Below, in pieces: positions 2,825-24,308 of a DNA stretch of 24,875 nucleotides (within the stretch, counting starts at the first letter, position 1; each line of letters begins with the position of its first letter). Origin of the DNA: a virus. The translations under genes and the position numbers were made by a program. Under the pieces are notes generated by a model, which had not been told where the DNA came from, made no database searches, and saw nothing but the letters and a program-made list of their open reading frames with translations. The stretch covers positions 1-24,875 of the IMG/VR virus record IMGVR_UViG_3300000227_000002. One strand, written 5' to 3'.

Positions 2825-2871
2825 AAAAGACTAAGAAATTAACTATTACAGTTTTTATCTTAGTCTTTTGT
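2823..2871 (-). terminator. Long hairpin at chaperone/tape-measure junction
   Basis: A perfect 14-bp inverted repeat (2823-2836 with 2858-2871) encloses a 21-nt loop that holds the chaperone stop codon (2855-2857). It could stop or slow transcription, be an RNA-processing site or protect the upstream mRNA end. Its downstream arm touches the promoter-like motif of the tape-measure gene. There is no clean U-tract on the minus strand, so intrinsic termination is uncertain. Confidence 0.45.
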
Positions 2872-3061
2872 TATATTTGCTTTTTTCTTGTTCTTGTATT
2901 TTTTCTAATTCTTCGAATTCTTTTTGTAGTAAATGTAAATAAAATCTTCTACGATAAACTGGTATATTTTCAATATATTCTGAATTAAAATTTCCATGTT
3001 TTGTTAAAACATATATTTCTTCATTTATCATTTTTTTATATTCAGATGCTAAATCTTTGGG
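2855..3061 (-). CDS. Tail chaperone C-terminal extension (-1 frame, GT-like)
   Basis: This frame is open from CCC at 3061 to TAA at 2855-2857 and overlaps the end of the gp26-like gene in the -1 frame. A -1 slip on T-TTT-TTC (3067-3061) would join residue 317 of the upstream protein to 68 further residues, giving a fusion of about 385. The extension begins PKDLASEYKK and continues into a charged helical domain with the stretch YIENIPVYRRRFYLHLLQKE. An ATG at 3031 would alternatively give a free 58-residue protein. Codon use and protein quality hold across the whole extension, including the 10 residues before that ATG, which favours a fusion. The alternatives are a homopolymer sequencing error in the run of nine T or a genuinely separate small gene. 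The position before the tape measure matches tail chaperone GT proteins. Confidence 0.65.
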   Translation of the reverse strand, partial: PKDLASEYKKMINEEIYVLTKHGNFNSEYIENIPVYRRRFYLHLLQKEFEELEKIQEQEKSKYNKRLR

Positions 3062-4011
3062 AAAAAAAAATCTAATCCAATAACTAAATTAGCGTTAAAA
3101 GTATAATTATCTTTAGTAGTAAATTCATATTCTAAATCAACATCAGGACTAACATCATTTATTTTTTTTCTAATTGCATATGCATCTAAAGCAGGCATTG
3201 CATCAACGAATTTATCAATATACAATCTATCAGAATTGCCATTTATTGAAAAAATGCTTGCTTTTAATTTCATTGTTGAATATTGATTATATTCTTCATT
3301 ATATGCTTCTTGAATTGATTTTGCTTTTTTAAATAATATATTTTCTTCACCAGCAGTAAGCAATTTAAATTTAACTTCTTTTTTTCGCATAGGCAGCATT
3401 ACTGAAAATAAACCATTTTCATCGGGAAATTCTTTTATTTCTTTATATTTTAATTTTGTTAAATCAACAACAGTTTTAAATGGTGTATTTGTTCTAGGGT
3501 CAATTACTTGAACAGTATATTCACGTCCATAACTAGATGATCTTAAAAAAAGAATAATTGCATTTCGGTCACCGGGTAATAAATCATCAGGATTAACACC
3601 CTGTGTTTTAATTTTCCTTTTAAGAAGAACATCAAGAACAGTACCGTTTTCTATTAATGATGGAGTTGTTAACATATCTTCATCTTTTGAAGTCATATAT
3701 TCAACAGCAACTTCAGATAATTTATTTGAATAAAATAATCCCATAGATGGAAGTTTAACAATTTCATATGTTGTCATCAAATCGGGGTCAATTTCTTTAT
3801 TCATTATATTTTGTATATCATTTGGTGAATAATAATTTGATTTTGGTATTTGATATGAATTTACTTTTGAAGCATTATCATTAGCAATTGGTGGATTTGT
3901 TAGATTGTTATCAGATTCATTAATTGATAAATTATTTAATTGTCTATTTTCTTTATATTTTTTTAATAACTCACTGATTTTTTCTTTATTAGATGCATTG
4001 TTATCTGTCAT
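3049..4011 (-). CDS. T4 gp26-like tail/baseplate assembly protein (chaperone G-like)
   Basis: A 320-residue protein. Residues 1-78 are polar and probably disordered. Residues about 80-320 resemble the T4 gp26 baseplate-hub assembly family: a start around YEIVKLPSMGLFY, then LTTPSLIENGTVLDVLLKRK, LLPGDRNAIILFLRSSSYG and a C-terminal helical part. Proteins of this family act in tail assembly without being major virion parts. It is longer than T4 gp26 (about 208 residues) mainly through the N-terminal tail. The zero frame ends in TAG at 3049-3051 just after the slippery run, so most product should be this short form. With the -1 extension and the following tape measure it forms a G/GT/tape-measure cluster. 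The family call is from memory of motifs and is moderately secure. Confidence 0.7.
   Translation of the reverse strand: MTDNNASNKEKISELLKKYKENRQLNNLSINESDNNLTNPPIANDNASKVNSYQIPKSNYYSPNDIQNIMNKEIDPDLMTTYEIVKLPSMGLFYSNKLSEVAVEYMTSKDEDMLTTPSLIENGTVLDVLLKRKIKTQGVNPDDLLPGDRNAIILFLRSSSYGREYTVQVIDPRTNTPFKTVVDLTKLKYKEIKEFPDENGLFSVMLPMRKKEVKFKLLTAGEENILFKKAKSIQEAYNEEYNQYSTMKLKASIFSINGNSDRLYIDKFVDAMPALDAYAIRKKINDVSPDVDLEYEFTTKDNYTFNANLVIGLDFFFPKI
3061..3067 (-). promoter_or_regulatory. Putative -1 ribosomal frameshift site T-TTT-TTC
   Basis: In the gp26-like reading frame the codons GAT TTT TTT TTC CCA run through nine consecutive T. The last seven bases form T TTT TTC, a known X-XXY-YYZ slippery heptamer. 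The zero-frame stop follows three codons after TTC. The -1 frame is open for 68 codons. I see no obvious downstream pseudoknot or internal Shine-Dalgarno stimulator. Confidence 0.6.
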
Positions 4012-4133: not shown

Positions 4134-4955
4134 ATGGTTAAAGATAAATTTAAAGATATTAAAGAATATGAAAAATTAATATCAACAACAAATATTGATA
4201 ATATTGGTGAAATTAAAAGTATTATTAGTAAATTAATACCAAACGATTTAAAAATAATAGCAAAAAATGAAAGCCAAAAAAATTTAATAAATTTAATAAA
4301 GAATAATGAAATAACAATTTGTTCAGGTCCTGCAGGAACAGGAAAAACATTTGTAGCATTAGCATTTGCATTAAATTTATTAAGAAAAACGACAAATAGA
4401 TATAAAAAAATATATTTAGTTAAATCAGTTACAACATTAAAAGGTGAAGAAATTGGATATTTAAAAGGAGATTTAAAAGAAAAAATAGAACCTTTTATGT
4501 GGAGTTTTTATATTAACATGGAAAAATTACTATTAAATTCAATTATTAAACAATTAGTTGAAAATGATATAATAATACCATTTCCATTAGCATATATGAG
4601 AGGCGCAAGTCTTGATGATTGTATTATAATTGTTGATGAAATGCAAAATGTATCTTTAGATAATTCAAGAACATTATTAACAAGAATTGGTAGTAATTGT
4701 AAATTAATATTATTGGGTGATACTAATCAAATTGATTTAAAAAATAAAAATGATAGTTCATTAGATATATTAATTAATTTATTTGAAAATGTTAATAATA
4801 TTGGTGTTATTAAAATGTCTGAAAAAGATACGAATGTTAGAAATCCGTTAATTACAATAATTGAAGAAAAATATAAGGAATATTATGGTGCTAAATATCA
4901 ATTATCAGGAAATACTAAAACAATAACAAAAAATAAACAGATTTTAAATGATTAA
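4134..4955 (+). CDS. phoH: PhoH-like ATPase
   Basis: A 273-residue P-loop ATPase of the PhoH family, related to the N-terminal domain of RecD/superfamily 1 helicases and very common in large phages. The Walker A motif GPAGTGKT is at residues 65-72, followed by the PhoH-typical LVKSVTTLKGEEIGYLKGDL at about 95-114. Walker B IIIVDEMQN is at 164-172 and the sensor-like GDTNQID at 195-201. The length is normal for the single-domain phage form. Its role in phages is unsettled; RNA or nucleotide metabolism is usually suggested. It opens a plus-strand run after the divergent region 4012-4133, and no GTATTTAT motif lies before it, so it may belong to another expression class. Its end overlaps the next ORF by 8 nt if that ORF starts at 4948. 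Confidence 0.92.
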   Translation: MVKDKFKDIKEYEKLISTTNIDNIGEIKSIISKLIPNDLKIIAKNESQKNLINLIKNNEITICSGPAGTGKTFVALAFALNLLRKTTNRYKKIYLVKSVTTLKGEEIGYLKGDLKEKIEPFMWSFYINMEKLLLNSIIKQLVENDIIIPFPLAYMRGASLDDCIIIVDEMQNVSLDNSRTLLTRIGSNCKLILLGDTNQIDLKNKNDSSLDILINLFENVNNIGVIKMSEKDTNVRNPLITIIEEKYKEYYGAKYQLSGNTKTITKNKQILND

Positions 4956-12266: not shown

Positions 12267-12755
12267 TTATACATTTAATATACATCTCCATGGTTGAACT
12301 TCCAATGTAATATTCGTTAATTCATCACTACCATAATCATTATCACCAAAATTGATATTTGTTATCATACATTGCTCTAATGTCCATTTTTCAACTTCAA
12401 TACCAGTTGGGTCTAATGATTTTAAAATAATTGTTTTTTTATAACCAGCAGCATATCCCATTCTACCCGTTAATGATTCTGCATGTAATCTTACCCATTC
12501 CATTAATATTTGAGATGTAGAAGGACCTATTGGGTCAATAAATGTAATTGTCACAGGGTCCCAACTATATCTTCCAGCAACATAATTTTGTTCATTCATA
12601 TATGGAATTGAAACACTGTTTATTTTCATTGATGGTCTTTTGAATTTTTGTATTTGCCAAACTTCAACATTAACATCTATAATTTCTGCAAAAAATCTAT
12701 TAACCCTTTTTGGTTCATAGGTGAATGGTACATCTCTTAACATAATGCCTGCCAT
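12267..12755 (-). CDS. Tail tube protein, gp19-like
   Basis: A 162-residue protein of almost exactly the T4 gp19 length (163). The order of beta-strand segments is that of contractile-tail tube proteins: RVNRFFAEIIDVNVEVWQIQ (18-37), SVSIPYMNEQNYVAGRYSWD (47-66), then VTITFIDPIGPSTSQILMEW and a C-terminal ELTNITLEVQPWRCILNV. Tube monomers stack into hexameric rings inside the sheath, through which DNA passes. It lies two genes after the sheath in the same direction, as expected. The convergent terminator is at its 3' end, and a GTATTTAT motif is 41 nt upstream of the ATG. Confidence 0.88.
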   Translation of the reverse strand: MAGIMLRDVPFTYEPKRVNRFFAEIIDVNVEVWQIQKFKRPSMKINSVSIPYMNEQNYVAGRYSWDPVTITFIDPIGPSTSQILMEWVRLHAESLTGRMGYAAGYKKTIILKSLDPTGIEVEKWTLEQCMITNINFGDNDYGSDELTNITLEVQPWRCILNV

Positions 12756-13244: not shown

Positions 13245-16001
13245 TTACGCACCTACGTCTTCAAAACTAGCACCAGATGGCGTAATTGTAAATGTAATAC
13301 CAATATATTCTAAAGTTCGTGTTGGCTTAATAAATATTTCACCGTATAATTCATTTCTATCACGAGTTTCAGGCGTATTATTAGTATCATCCATTTTTAT
13401 TCTAAAATCAATTAATCCACGTTCTCTTTTAATTGTTTCTAATAGAGGATTTGCTTTTTCTAAAAATTGGTCAATTGTTGCTTGGTCATTTTGGTCAAAA
13501 ACTAACCTGATTGCGATATTTGCAATAAGTACTTTTATTTGAAGCAATAATCTACGAACATTAATTCTATTTAATGCGGTTTCTTTAATTTGTAATGTTT
13601 TTTGACCAAATATTGCAGTACCAACATCAGCAAAATCTGCTAATGGATTAATATTTGCTGCGTATAAAATATCTCTCGCTTCTTGACTTAATTTATATTT
13701 AGATTTTCTAGCATTGGTAACACCACGAGTTAAACCAGCAGGAGCAAACCATGGATATTTTACGTTATCAGTAAATGCCATTGATTTAACTACTTCACCT
13801 GTTGGTGGAATATACAAATTAACATTGTTTTCATTATCTCTAATTTGAATCCATGGAAAATAGGTACATGCGTAGTTACTATCAATACCTGTATCTTTTA
13901 GAGCATTTGCTATTTGTTGTGCTGCTATAATATCAGATTTACCACCGTCACCAATACTTGTTGAAATTTCAATATCTGGTGAATCTATTATATATAGACT
14001 ATCTGTTCTTTGTTTTTCAATCATTTCAATAGTTTCTCTCACCAATATTGAATTATCCATCCAATTAATACCGGGTGTTGCAAATAAATTAATTGTAACA
14101 TTTTCTGGATTTGCAAAAGTTTCAATTGCAGTTTTCCATGCTTGATAATCATTAGTAGGCACTACATTTGGTTGTCCCGGTAATCCACTATAAATACCAC
14201 CTTGTTGATAACCATCACCATTTGAACGTTTATTACGATGAACATTCCATCCATCAAAACCACCTGCTGGTACTAATGTGAACTTTCTTGATTTAATATC
14301 CTTATATGGATTATTAACATCTTCAACATCTTTATATGTTCTAAATGATGCTTCACCAACTTCAAACTCACCAATATATATATTTCCATTGTAATATGTG
14401 CTAGTTGCACCGCTATCCATATGGAATCCTTTTGATTTTACATGTGCTGATGATGGTTTACCATTGAAATTGAATAAATTTTGATTAATACCACTACCTG
14501 CTAACTGTGCTGAATCATATCCGTGTTCTGAAATACCTAAATAATATTTTGATAATCTACCAATTTCGTTTGCATCATATTTAGTTTTATAAAATATTTT
14601 TGGCGGTTTTCCATTTGTAGTTAAATCACCAGTTGCTGATGATGTATAATCATTTAACATATATCCTTCAAAACCTGCAGGAAATACTTTATCTGGTATT
14701 TCATTATTTAATTCTACCATTACATATTTGCTCATTAATGGATATTCACCATCAGTTGTACCAATTTTTTGTGCTAAATAACTATTTAATCCTTTAATTA
14801 ATGTACATTTATTATAACTTTCTAATATGATTGGACTTGCATCTGTGTCATAAAAATCTCTAATTATTACATCGAATTCATATGTAATTGGATTAATATT
14901 GGTTATTGATATTTTAATTTCATTATTCGCTGAATCACCATCACTAATTGTTATAAATTTAAATAATCTATTTACTTGACTACCCATTAATTGCGATACT
15001 ACCCAAGGTGTTTCTGGTGTTTGATATTTAATTTTCCAATCAGTAAAATTATTGGTTTTCCCTGTTAATATATGTGTATTTATACCATAACCCAATCCAT
15101 ATGCATCTAATTTCTTTATTAAATCAGGATATATTGCTTCAACCCAAATTTTTGTGTTTTTATCTTTTGGCGTTTTACCTATTACATTAGGTAAATAATT
15201 AGAATCATTTGGATTTAATGATACTTTATGTGTTTCAGTACTACCACTATCTGATGCAATTAAATTAAAAATACCAAACATATCACCAACACCAATTAGT
15301 GTTTGATTTGTGTTAATTGATAAATTCGTTGCTTTAAATACTATTCTAGGTTCTTCATTTACCGAATCAAACACATCTGCACGGCTTCTTATTACAGCCA
15401 ATACCATATTTTCATATTCACTTAATGAATTTCCTGTTATGGTAATTGGAGTAACATTAACAATACCATTAGAACCAACAATATTTGTCACAACAAATGA
15501 ATATGCAATACCTTTAAATGTATTATCTAATTGTTTGGTAAATCCAGTAAATGAATATCCAGTATCACCAACACTATATAGTGTTCTACCAAGATATATA
15601 TTATTGGTAAAATTATCATTATATGATGTTCCAGATGTCGCACCTGTTGTTGATAAATCAACACCAGCACTTAATGTTAACATCCATGCAGTTCCAGCAT
15701 CATAACCGCTTAACCCTAATACCCTTGTTACGTATAATTGATTTGATTGTGACAAGTATGCATCTGCAACATATGGTAAATGATATTGTAATCCATTATT
15801 ATTAGGAAATTTTTTCGTGCTTTTACCACCAAATCTAGTTCTAAATTCATTTTTATCTTGTATTGCAACTGGTTCAAATGCAGGTCCTTTTAATGTTTCG
15901 CCAACTAAACCCAATGTAGTTATACCGACATTTCTAGTTACATAAGTTAAATCTCTTTCTTTAAATTTATAACCGGGAGATGTGAATATAAATTCTGCCA
16001 T
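13245..16001 (-). CDS. Tail sheath protein, gp18-like
   Basis: A 918-residue contractile sheath subunit. The N-terminus has the standard opening FTSPGYKFKERDLTYVTRNV (residues 6-25), followed by TLGLVGETLKGPAFEPVAI and FRTRFGG, found in most phage sheaths. The C-terminal part has YPWFAPAGLTRGVTNA, LADFADVGTAIFGQKTLQ and RINVRRLLLQIKVLIANIA, the conserved sheath core that also contacts the tube. T4 gp18 has about 659 residues; the excess here falls in the middle (roughly residues 120-600), consistent with additional outer domains. A terminator follows immediately and a GTATTTAT motif lies 53 nt upstream. The ATG at 15999-16001 is the natural start, as MAEFIFTSPGY matches family N-termini. Confidence 0.93.
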   Translation of the reverse strand: MAEFIFTSPGYKFKERDLTYVTRNVGITTLGLVGETLKGPAFEPVAIQDKNEFRTRFGGKSTKKFPNNNGLQYHLPYVADAYLSQSNQLYVTRVLGLSGYDAGTAWMLTLSAGVDLSTTGATSGTSYNDNFTNNIYLGRTLYSVGDTGYSFTGFTKQLDNTFKGIAYSFVVTNIVGSNGIVNVTPITITGNSLSEYENMVLAVIRSRADVFDSVNEEPRIVFKATNLSINTNQTLIGVGDMFGIFNLIASDSGSTETHKVSLNPNDSNYLPNVIGKTPKDKNTKIWVEAIYPDLIKKLDAYGLGYGINTHILTGKTNNFTDWKIKYQTPETPWVVSQLMGSQVNRLFKFITISDGDSANNEIKISITNINPITYEFDVIIRDFYDTDASPIILESYNKCTLIKGLNSYLAQKIGTTDGEYPLMSKYVMVELNNEIPDKVFPAGFEGYMLNDYTSSATGDLTTNGKPPKIFYKTKYDANEIGRLSKYYLGISEHGYDSAQLAGSGINQNLFNFNGKPSSAHVKSKGFHMDSGATSTYYNGNIYIGEFEVGEASFRTYKDVEDVNNPYKDIKSRKFTLVPAGGFDGWNVHRNKRSNGDGYQQGGIYSGLPGQPNVVPTNDYQAWKTAIETFANPENVTINLFATPGINWMDNSILVRETIEMIEKQRTDSLYIIDSPDIEISTSIGDGGKSDIIAAQQIANALKDTGIDSNYACTYFPWIQIRDNENNVNLYIPPTGEVVKSMAFTDNVKYPWFAPAGLTRGVTNARKSKYKLSQEARDILYAANINPLADFADVGTAIFGQKTLQIKETALNRINVRRLLLQIKVLIANIAIRLVFDQNDQATIDQFLEKANPLLETIKRERGLIDFRIKMDDTNNTPETRDRNELYGEIFIKPTRTLEYIGITFTITPSGASFEDVGA

Positions 16002-22749: not shown

Positions 22750-23208
22750 ATGATTATAAAATTTAAACGATTAGTGCCAGAAGCAAAAGAACCTTATAAG
22801 GTTAATGATGTTGATGCAGGATTTGATTTATATGCAACATCATATCAAGAATTTGATGGGTATATTGAATATCATACTGGAATTGCATTTGAAATTCCAG
22901 ATGGTTACGTTGGATTAGTTTTTCCACGTAGTTCAATAACAAAATATGACTTAATGCTAAAAAATAGTGTGGGTGTTATTGATTCATCATATCGTGGTGA
23001 AATTATATGTAGATTTTATCAACTTGATAGTAATAATGCATATCGTGTTAATATGGGGTTGGTTCAGTTTGGTAATAATAAATATGCTATTGGTGAACGT
23101 ATTGCACAAATAGTATTTGTTGAAATACCCAAAATTAAATTAGTTGAATCTGATGAATTATCAGAAACGAATAGAGGTAATGGTGGTTTTGGTTCAACGG
23201 GTAATTAA
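22750..23208 (+). CDS. dut: dUTPase (dUTP diphosphatase)
   Basis: A 152-residue trimeric-type dUTPase that converts dUTP to dUMP and PPi. All five motifs are present in order: DAGFDLYA (22-29), PRSS (59-62), GVIDSSYRGEI (75-85), GERIAQIVF (115-123) and RGNGGFGSTG (142-151). Asp78 of motif 3 is the expected catalytic residue. The length is typical. It keeps uracil out of the AT-rich phage DNA and supplies dUMP to thymidylate synthase, whose gene follows after 14 bases. Upstream lies a 205-bp gap with no gene. The ATG at 22750 gives the usual N-terminus. Confidence 0.95.
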   Translation: MIIKFKRLVPEAKEPYKVNDVDAGFDLYATSYQEFDGYIEYHTGIAFEIPDGYVGLVFPRSSITKYDLMLKNSVGVIDSSYRGEIICRFYQLDSNNAYRVNMGLVQFGNNKYAIGERIAQIVFVEIPKIKLVESDELSETNRGNGGFGSTGN

Positions 23209-23222
23209 TAATTAATTGATAT

Positions 23223-24308
23223 ATGAAACAGTATATAGATTTACTAAAAAATATAATATCTAATGGTGTTGAAAAGGAAAGTGGAAGGCCTAATATGCCA
23301 AAAGTAATTGGTTTGTCAAATGCAACCATTACAATGAATTTACGTGAAGGATTTCCATTACTAACCACAAAAAAAATGTATTTTAAGGGAATTGTGCATG
23401 AATTATTGTGGTTTATAAAAGGTGATACTAACATAAAATATTTAATAGATAATAATGTTAATATTTGGAATAACGATGCGTTGAGATGGTATAAAGACGT
23501 CTTGGTGAAAAATTATCAAGCACCAGATATGGATATGGTAGAGTTTATTGAATTGGTTAAACAACAAAAAAAATATTATTATACGAAAAATGTAAAATTA
23601 AAAGATAATATTGATTTAGAAAATAATTTAAGATACGAATCCTGTGTTTATATATATGGTGATATGGGTAAAATATATGGTCATCAATGGAGATATCAAA
23701 ATGGTGTTGACCAATTAAAATACGTGTATGATAATTTGAAAAATAATCCGTATAGTCGTTATCATATTATTAATAATTGGAATCCATCAGATTTATCTGA
23801 AATGGGATTACCACCTTGTCATTTATTATATCAATTTATCGTAAGACCATTAAGTTTAAATGATAGATTAACATATTATTATAATAATATGAAGGGTGAT
23901 TTATTTTTATATAAAAACGATGATAATTTGAAAATTTATTTGAAAAATATTAATGTACCTGAGTTTTATTTAGATTTAAATATGTATCAAAGAAGTGCTG
24001 ATGTATTTTTAGGATTACCATTTAATTTGGCGAGTATGTCATTGTTACTTGAGATTTTTGCTAAGTCATTAAATATGATTTCAGGTGTCGCTACTTGGAT
24101 TGGTGGTGATACTCATATATATATTGAACACCTATCTTCTGTTTTAACACAGTTAGATAGAAATCCATACGCATTACCGAAATTAAAAATAAACAAAAAA
24201 TTAAATTCTTTTGATGATATTATATCATTAGAATATGATGATTTTGAATTAGTTGATTATTTATCACATGAACCAATAAATGCTAAATTATTTACAGGAT
24301 TATCTTAA
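23223..24308 (+). CDS. thyA: Thymidylate synthase (ThyA type) with insertions
   Basis: A 361-residue ThyA-type enzyme making dTMP from dUMP with methylenetetrahydrofolate. The folate- and dUMP-binding landmarks are clear: FPLLTTKKMYFKG (44-56), YGHQWR (152-157), MGLPPCH with catalytic Cys199, QRSADVFLGLPFN (256-268) and GGDTHIY (294-300). It is about 100 residues longer than E. coli ThyA (264). One insertion at about 92-145 resembles the small-domain insertion of the Lactobacillus casei enzyme (APDM ... YGDMGKIYG). A second, at about 208-250 between the catalytic Cys and the QRS motif, is unusual. In the phosphate-binding SRR motif the second Arg is replaced (SRYH, 178-181). It is paired with dut. 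An intrinsic terminator follows inside the opposing gene. Confidence 0.93.
   Translation: MKQYIDLLKNIISNGVEKESGRPNMPKVIGLSNATITMNLREGFPLLTTKKMYFKGIVHELLWFIKGDTNIKYLIDNNVNIWNNDALRWYKDVLVKNYQAPDMDMVEFIELVKQQKKYYYTKNVKLKDNIDLENNLRYESCVYIYGDMGKIYGHQWRYQNGVDQLKYVYDNLKNNPYSRYHIINNWNPSDLSEMGLPPCHLLYQFIVRPLSLNDRLTYYYNNMKGDLFLYKNDDNLKIYLKNINVPEFYLDLNMYQRSADVFLGLPFNLASMSLLLEIFAKSLNMISGVATWIGGDTHIYIEHLSSVLTQLDRNPYALPKLKINKKLNSFDDIISLEYDDFELVDYLSHEPINAKLFTGLS

Follow-up and report, generated by a model that had tools for sequence, protein, structure and literature searches.

Tail genes and overlapping reading frames of the locus

The analysed window comprises 24,875 nucleotides (positions 1 to 24,875 of the IMG/VR virus record IMGVR_UViG_3300000227_000002) and encodes several tail proteins on its minus strand (Table 1). 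A gp26-like gene, whose predicted product is a short tail assembly chaperone, is located just before a probable tape measure gene, and its 3' end is overlapped by an open −1 frame.

Table 1. Features of the chaperone locus and neighbouring tail genes in the window
Feature	Position	Strand	Basis or remark
Probable tape measure gene, 845 aa	260..2797	−	Starts 57 nt past the −1 stop
−1 frame extension, 68 codons + TAA; predicted C-terminal domain (TAC-C) of the long chaperone, as in gp51	2855..3061	−	phrog_634, coding pattern, hhalign
0-frame stop TAG	3049..3051	−	Inside TTA GCA (Leu-Ala) of the −1 frame
0-frame gene, predicted short tail assembly chaperone (TAC-N, gp26-like), 320 aa	3049..4011	−	PF12322, phrog_150
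Slippery run TTTTTTTTT C	3061..3070	−	T TTT TTC (3067→3061) and T TTT TTT (3070→3064), 0 frame
Tail tube protein	12267..12755	−	phrog_4542, E 9.4e-29
Tail sheath protein	13245..16001	−	phrog_23, E 4.7e-64; PF17482, E 8.9e-8

An ORF of ~820-860 amino acids occupies the tape-measure place in nearly every relative with enough sequence, and is shorter only at the ends of contigs. The 845-aa ORF of the window is weakly similar by blastp (E 6e-4) to the protein annotated as tape measure in Flavobacterium phage immuto, in which the annotated gene order is sheath, tube, chaperone and tape measure. In Microcystis phage Mel-JY01 the sheath and tube genes are followed by the same chaperone, which a small ORF overlaps at its end. 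Outside the tail module, translations of the plus strand read by eye suggest a PhoH-like ATPase (4134-4955), a dUTPase (22750-23208) and a thymidylate synthase (23223-24308).

The 0-frame gene ends with GAT TTT TTT TTC CCA AAG ATT TAG (minus strand, 3072→3049), and incorporates a run of nine T (3070→3062) in which the last T of GAT is counted. From the CCC at 3061, the −1 frame continues through 68 codons before the TAA at 2857-2855, and the predicted fusion would comprise 317 + 68 = 385 residues. The earlier note had described this 0-frame ending, the nine T, the T TTT TTC heptamer, the 68-codon −1 frame and a fusion of ~385 residues, and the sequence reads accordingly. On the plus strand the window contains one T9 and two A9 homopolymers, one of the latter being the run of the gene itself. 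As the sequence is 75% A+T and carries other nine-base runs, the nine-T run by itself constitutes no evidence for recoding.

Relationship of the two products to T4 gp26 and gp51

The 0-frame product falls in PF12322 'T4_baseplate' (E 7.6e-8, above the curated cut-off) and matches phrog_150 (E 9.1e-10). The −1 product alone matches phrog_634, 'baseplate hub assembly catalyst' (E 9.3e-4), and the −1 ORF is the best match to this profile in the whole record. Both T4 gp26 (208 aa, E 8.8e-64) and T4 gp51 (249 aa, E 3.9e-52) are in PF12322 and are therefore paralogues. The extra tail of gp51 matches positions 63-103 of the phrog_634 profile, and the −1 product of the window matches positions 71-119, overlapping the stretch matched by the gp51 tail. 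When profiles of 21 of the −1 domains and of seven gp51-type tails were compared using hhalign, the probability was 93% (E 3.2e-7). T4 gp51 consists of a gp26 domain and a C-terminal domain joined in frame, with the C-terminal domain here apparently reached by a frameshift. One PF12322 gene over the cut-off is found in the record containing the window, an 88-kb virus fragment, and one in each of nine related records, while T4 contains two. For the record of the window, a second copy may lie outside the fragment.

The tie between the gp26 family and the G/GT chaperone system drawn in the earlier note is correct, in that gp26 and gp51 are paralogues and gp51 holds the C-terminal domain in frame, but the idea is not new, as it had already been published. 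The abstract of the 2022 study by Vladimirov, Gautam and Davidson reportedly names T4 genes 26 and 51. According to passages of two citing papers (PMC10885494; PMC12846349), these authors established which proteins are the tail assembly chaperones in T4-like phages (Virology 566:9-15), and the link of gp26 and gp51 to frameshifting tail assembly chaperones is likewise given there.

An AlphaFold model was derived from 26 sequences (mean pLDDT 72, core 85-95), and the BFVD matches of the predicted fold were for the most part proteins of the gp26 type or labelled 'baseplate hub', together with unnamed phage proteins. Among solved structures, no PDB match below E 0.001 was obtained either by sequence or by the fold predicted in this model. 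With BFVD matches of this kind and no match to a solved structure, the model speaks neither for nor against a fold shared with lambda gpG.

Conservation of the slip site and coding constraint on the −1 frame

Two scans of IMG/VR yielded 120 loci, many of which represent the same contigs twice, and the 112 loci with a complete site, together with the window, correspond to 58 distinct sequences in 40 clusters below 80% identity. The motif GAY TTT TTT TTC CCN is kept in 56 of the 58 (window counted), T TTT TTC still being present where GAC replaces GAT. The remaining two contain GAT TTT TTT TCC or TCT, where T TTT TTT is still left. The T run in all 58 is T9, or T8 where GAC precedes or TCC/TCT follows. 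In 57 of the 58 sequences the 0 frame reaches its stop at the sixth codon following the first TTT, and this stop is TAG in 46 of the 49 counted. Among 70 near-invariant amino-acid columns with a synonymous choice, only the three slip-site phenylalanines (TTT, TTT, TTC) use a single codon in every row. TTT and TTC are mixed in the five other conserved phenylalanine columns, and TTC accounts for only 18% of the phenylalanine codons elsewhere in these genes. As the sequences are related, no p-value is attached to this codon freeze. The frozen codons provide clean evolutionary evidence of selection on recoding.

The conservation across relatives also bears on a homopolymer error in sequencing or assembly that split one in-frame gene, an explanation suggested by the divergence of the frames at the nine-T run. 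Numerous separate metagenomes contributed to the 58 distinct sequences, which share the site and the frames and include no in-frame fused version. Such an error is refuted by the relatives, its probability being negligible. Read-through of the TAG as an amino acid was also discarded, as the 0 frame would gain only about six residues before meeting another stop, without entering the −1 ORF.

Pairwise differences at codon positions 1/2/3 of the −1 frame, counted from the 0-frame stop to the first possible methionine, are 0.128/0.063/0.362. Across the whole −1 domain they are 0.255/0.160/0.437, near the values for the 0-frame gene (0.259/0.172/0.427), and the 0-frame TAG lies inside a conserved Leu-Ala pair of the −1 frame (TTA or CTA, then GC). 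Two of the 58 sequences contain no ATG, GTG or TTG in the −1 ORF up to codon 45. By these patterns the −1 ORF behaves as a coding sequence from the slip site onward. An ATG does occur at codon 11 of the −1 ORF in most relatives, preceded in some by GGTGAG about ten bases upstream, and some separate C-terminal domain may be produced from it in those relatives. That the locus comprises two independent genes, with the downstream ORF translated from this ATG into a separate small protein, is very improbable, as the protein-coding constraint extends upstream of that methionine, two sequences are devoid of any start codon up to codon 45, and there would be no explanation for the frozen synonymous choice at the slip codons.

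With the slip codons frozen, the −1 ORF under coding constraint from the slip site and two relatives without a start codon, programmed −1 recoding is close to certain. The proposal of the earlier note, that a gp26-type gene immediately ahead of the tape measure undergoes a programmed −1 frameshift, is strongly supported by the frozen codons and the −1 constraint, and both the U-rich slip site and the −1 register, for which that note had suggested an alignment of homologues, are conserved across the 58 sequences. The mRNA structure 5-9 nt after the site that it had also put forward fared differently, as no conserved RNA structure was found downstream of the slip site with RNAalifold (~0 kcal/mol). 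Single-sequence folds of the region 9-90 nt downstream are on average stabler than shuffled sequences (mean z −1.97) and share no structure. A stimulatory RNA structure or a Shine-Dalgarno-like element is common at sites of the G/GT type but is not a requirement. A downstream hairpin or pseudoknot as stimulator receives no support from this search for conserved structure, in which pseudoknots were not explicitly sought.

Mechanism, direction of the shift and known systems

The same −1 layout, with one PF12322 gene and a phrog_634 domain overlapping in the −1 frame, is found in P-SSM2 (slip site AGT TTT TTC G), Syn9 (TCT TTT TTC G), HTVC008M (AGT TTT TTT A), phiM12 (AAT TTT TTT A), Cr30 (GAT TTT TTT C) and KVP40 (GAT TTT TTC G). 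T4 alone among the eight records compared contains two PF12322 genes, and no match was found in S-TIM5. In LR756511.1 (L045:3100-3420), T TTT TTC is likewise accompanied by an open −1 frame. The 0 frame there runs on for ~20 codons more and its stop is overlapped by an ATG (TAATG), on account of which the C-terminal domain may be a separate coupled gene. In the giant phages Stenotrophomonas phage RAS14 and Xanthomonas phage XacN1 (L047 and L048), −1 downstream ORFs follow TTT TTT ATY, are open from the phenylalanine codons on, and are mutually similar upstream of the annotated start. The XacN1 downstream product, the only one of the pair compared with phrog_634, showed no match.

These sites also bear on slippage during transcription, in which the RNA polymerase would add or drop a U on the T8-T9 run and ribosomes would read the altered mRNAs without slipping, yielding the same two proteins. 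A T9 or T8 run is present in all 58 sequences, and this length is sufficient for polymerase slippage in some bacteria. Other −1 members such as P-SSM2 and KVP40, however, keep the heptamer T TTT TTY despite a shorter T run of six to seven, and the groups have in common the tandem codon site, not a T run of fixed length. As T TTT TTY is kept in groups where the T run is only six to eight, slippage of the ribosome on T TTT TTC is favoured as the likeliest mechanism, and transcriptional slippage is considered unlikely.

With a probability of roughly 0.9, two products are made from the gene, most ribosomes stopping at the TAG and some slipping by −1 on T TTT TTC, to give a short and a long chaperone. 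Most ribosomes would end at 3051-3049 and release the 320-aa gp26-like short form, and those slipping back one base would continue into the 385-aa long form with its gp51-type C-terminal domain. By analogy with the lambda G/GT scheme (reviewed in PMC5009743), the short form, made in larger amounts, would attach along the length of the tape measure, and tail tube subunits would be recruited by the C-terminal domain of the less plentiful long form. The sequence data that speak for the two products are the codon freeze at the slip site, the coding pattern seen in the −1 frame, the gp26/gp51 homology of both parts and the large ORF at the tape-measure place. We infer that the slippage takes place on the ribosome and with an efficiency that would leave the long form the scarcer one; the coating and recruiting roles would be those of lambda gpG and gpGT.

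Relatives at ~34% identity (Mel-JY01, immuto and LR756508) belong to a large sister clade, with ~130 distinct metagenomic sequences, in which the homologous C-terminal domain (hhalign, 97.6%, E 4.4e-12) lies in the +1 (or −2) frame. This class comprises 133 of the 138 distinct sequences with a recognisable site. The conserved form of the site is TTT YTT TGG CCT, and it reads TTT TTT TGG CCT in 85 and TTT CTT TGG CCT in 28 of the 133. The proline codon is CCT in all 133, although CCT represents only 36% of the proline codons elsewhere in these genes, and in 36 of 60 clusters no start codon occurs in the +1 ORF up to codon 30. Public records annotate the sister-clade loci (L042:2468-3548, L044:2474-3437, L043 and L145-L324) as separate or truncated hypothetical genes. 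In a maximum-likelihood tree, to be read with caution because of its long branches and midpoint root, the −1 clade of the window (100/100) is placed inside a group (98/91) of which all other members are +1, and three changes are required to account for the −1 label. As the −1 clade thus nests within the +1 (or −2) clade, the direction of the shift seems to have changed. The chances are about even that it switched within one orthologous family of T4-type chaperones, with several groups using −1, the sister clade +1 (or −2) and the clade of the window having returned to −1. Both the +1 (or −2) sister clade and the change of direction may be new. Through this clade, three natural routes to the same protein pair can be compared, namely a −1 shift, a +1 shift and gene duplication.

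A T4-related phage clade that is widespread and uncultured, with records of up to 366 kb, very probably produces its chaperone pair by frameshifting. With the T4-like chaperones, where gp26 is the short and gp51 the long form, it has in common the PF12322/phrog_150 short form, the phrog_634 C-terminal domain and the slip site T TTT TTC/T, the last being found also in P-SSM2, Syn9, KVP40 and others. The clade of the window differs from these in being deep, AT-rich and uncultured, in an N-terminal extension of ~75 residues, and in a T8-T9 run after which nearly all members have CC, while T4 itself employs two genes instead of a frameshift. The slip site of lambda is GGGAAAG. Lambda gpG/gpGT (Levin 1993; Xu 2004) are likewise encoded by one gene just before the tape measure, with a short and a frameshifted long form. 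The likeness to lambda is one of gene layout, the predicted fold of the window's chaperone having no significant match among solved structures. In the Vandenendeviridae and Andersonviridae, represented by phage Adele, PMC12846349 describes chaperones whose −1 shift takes place at GTTTTT, a conserved T-rich sequence that lies upstream of the tape measure. Although these belong to another phage group, they resemble the locus described here in both the T-rich site of the −1 shift and its position before the tape measure.
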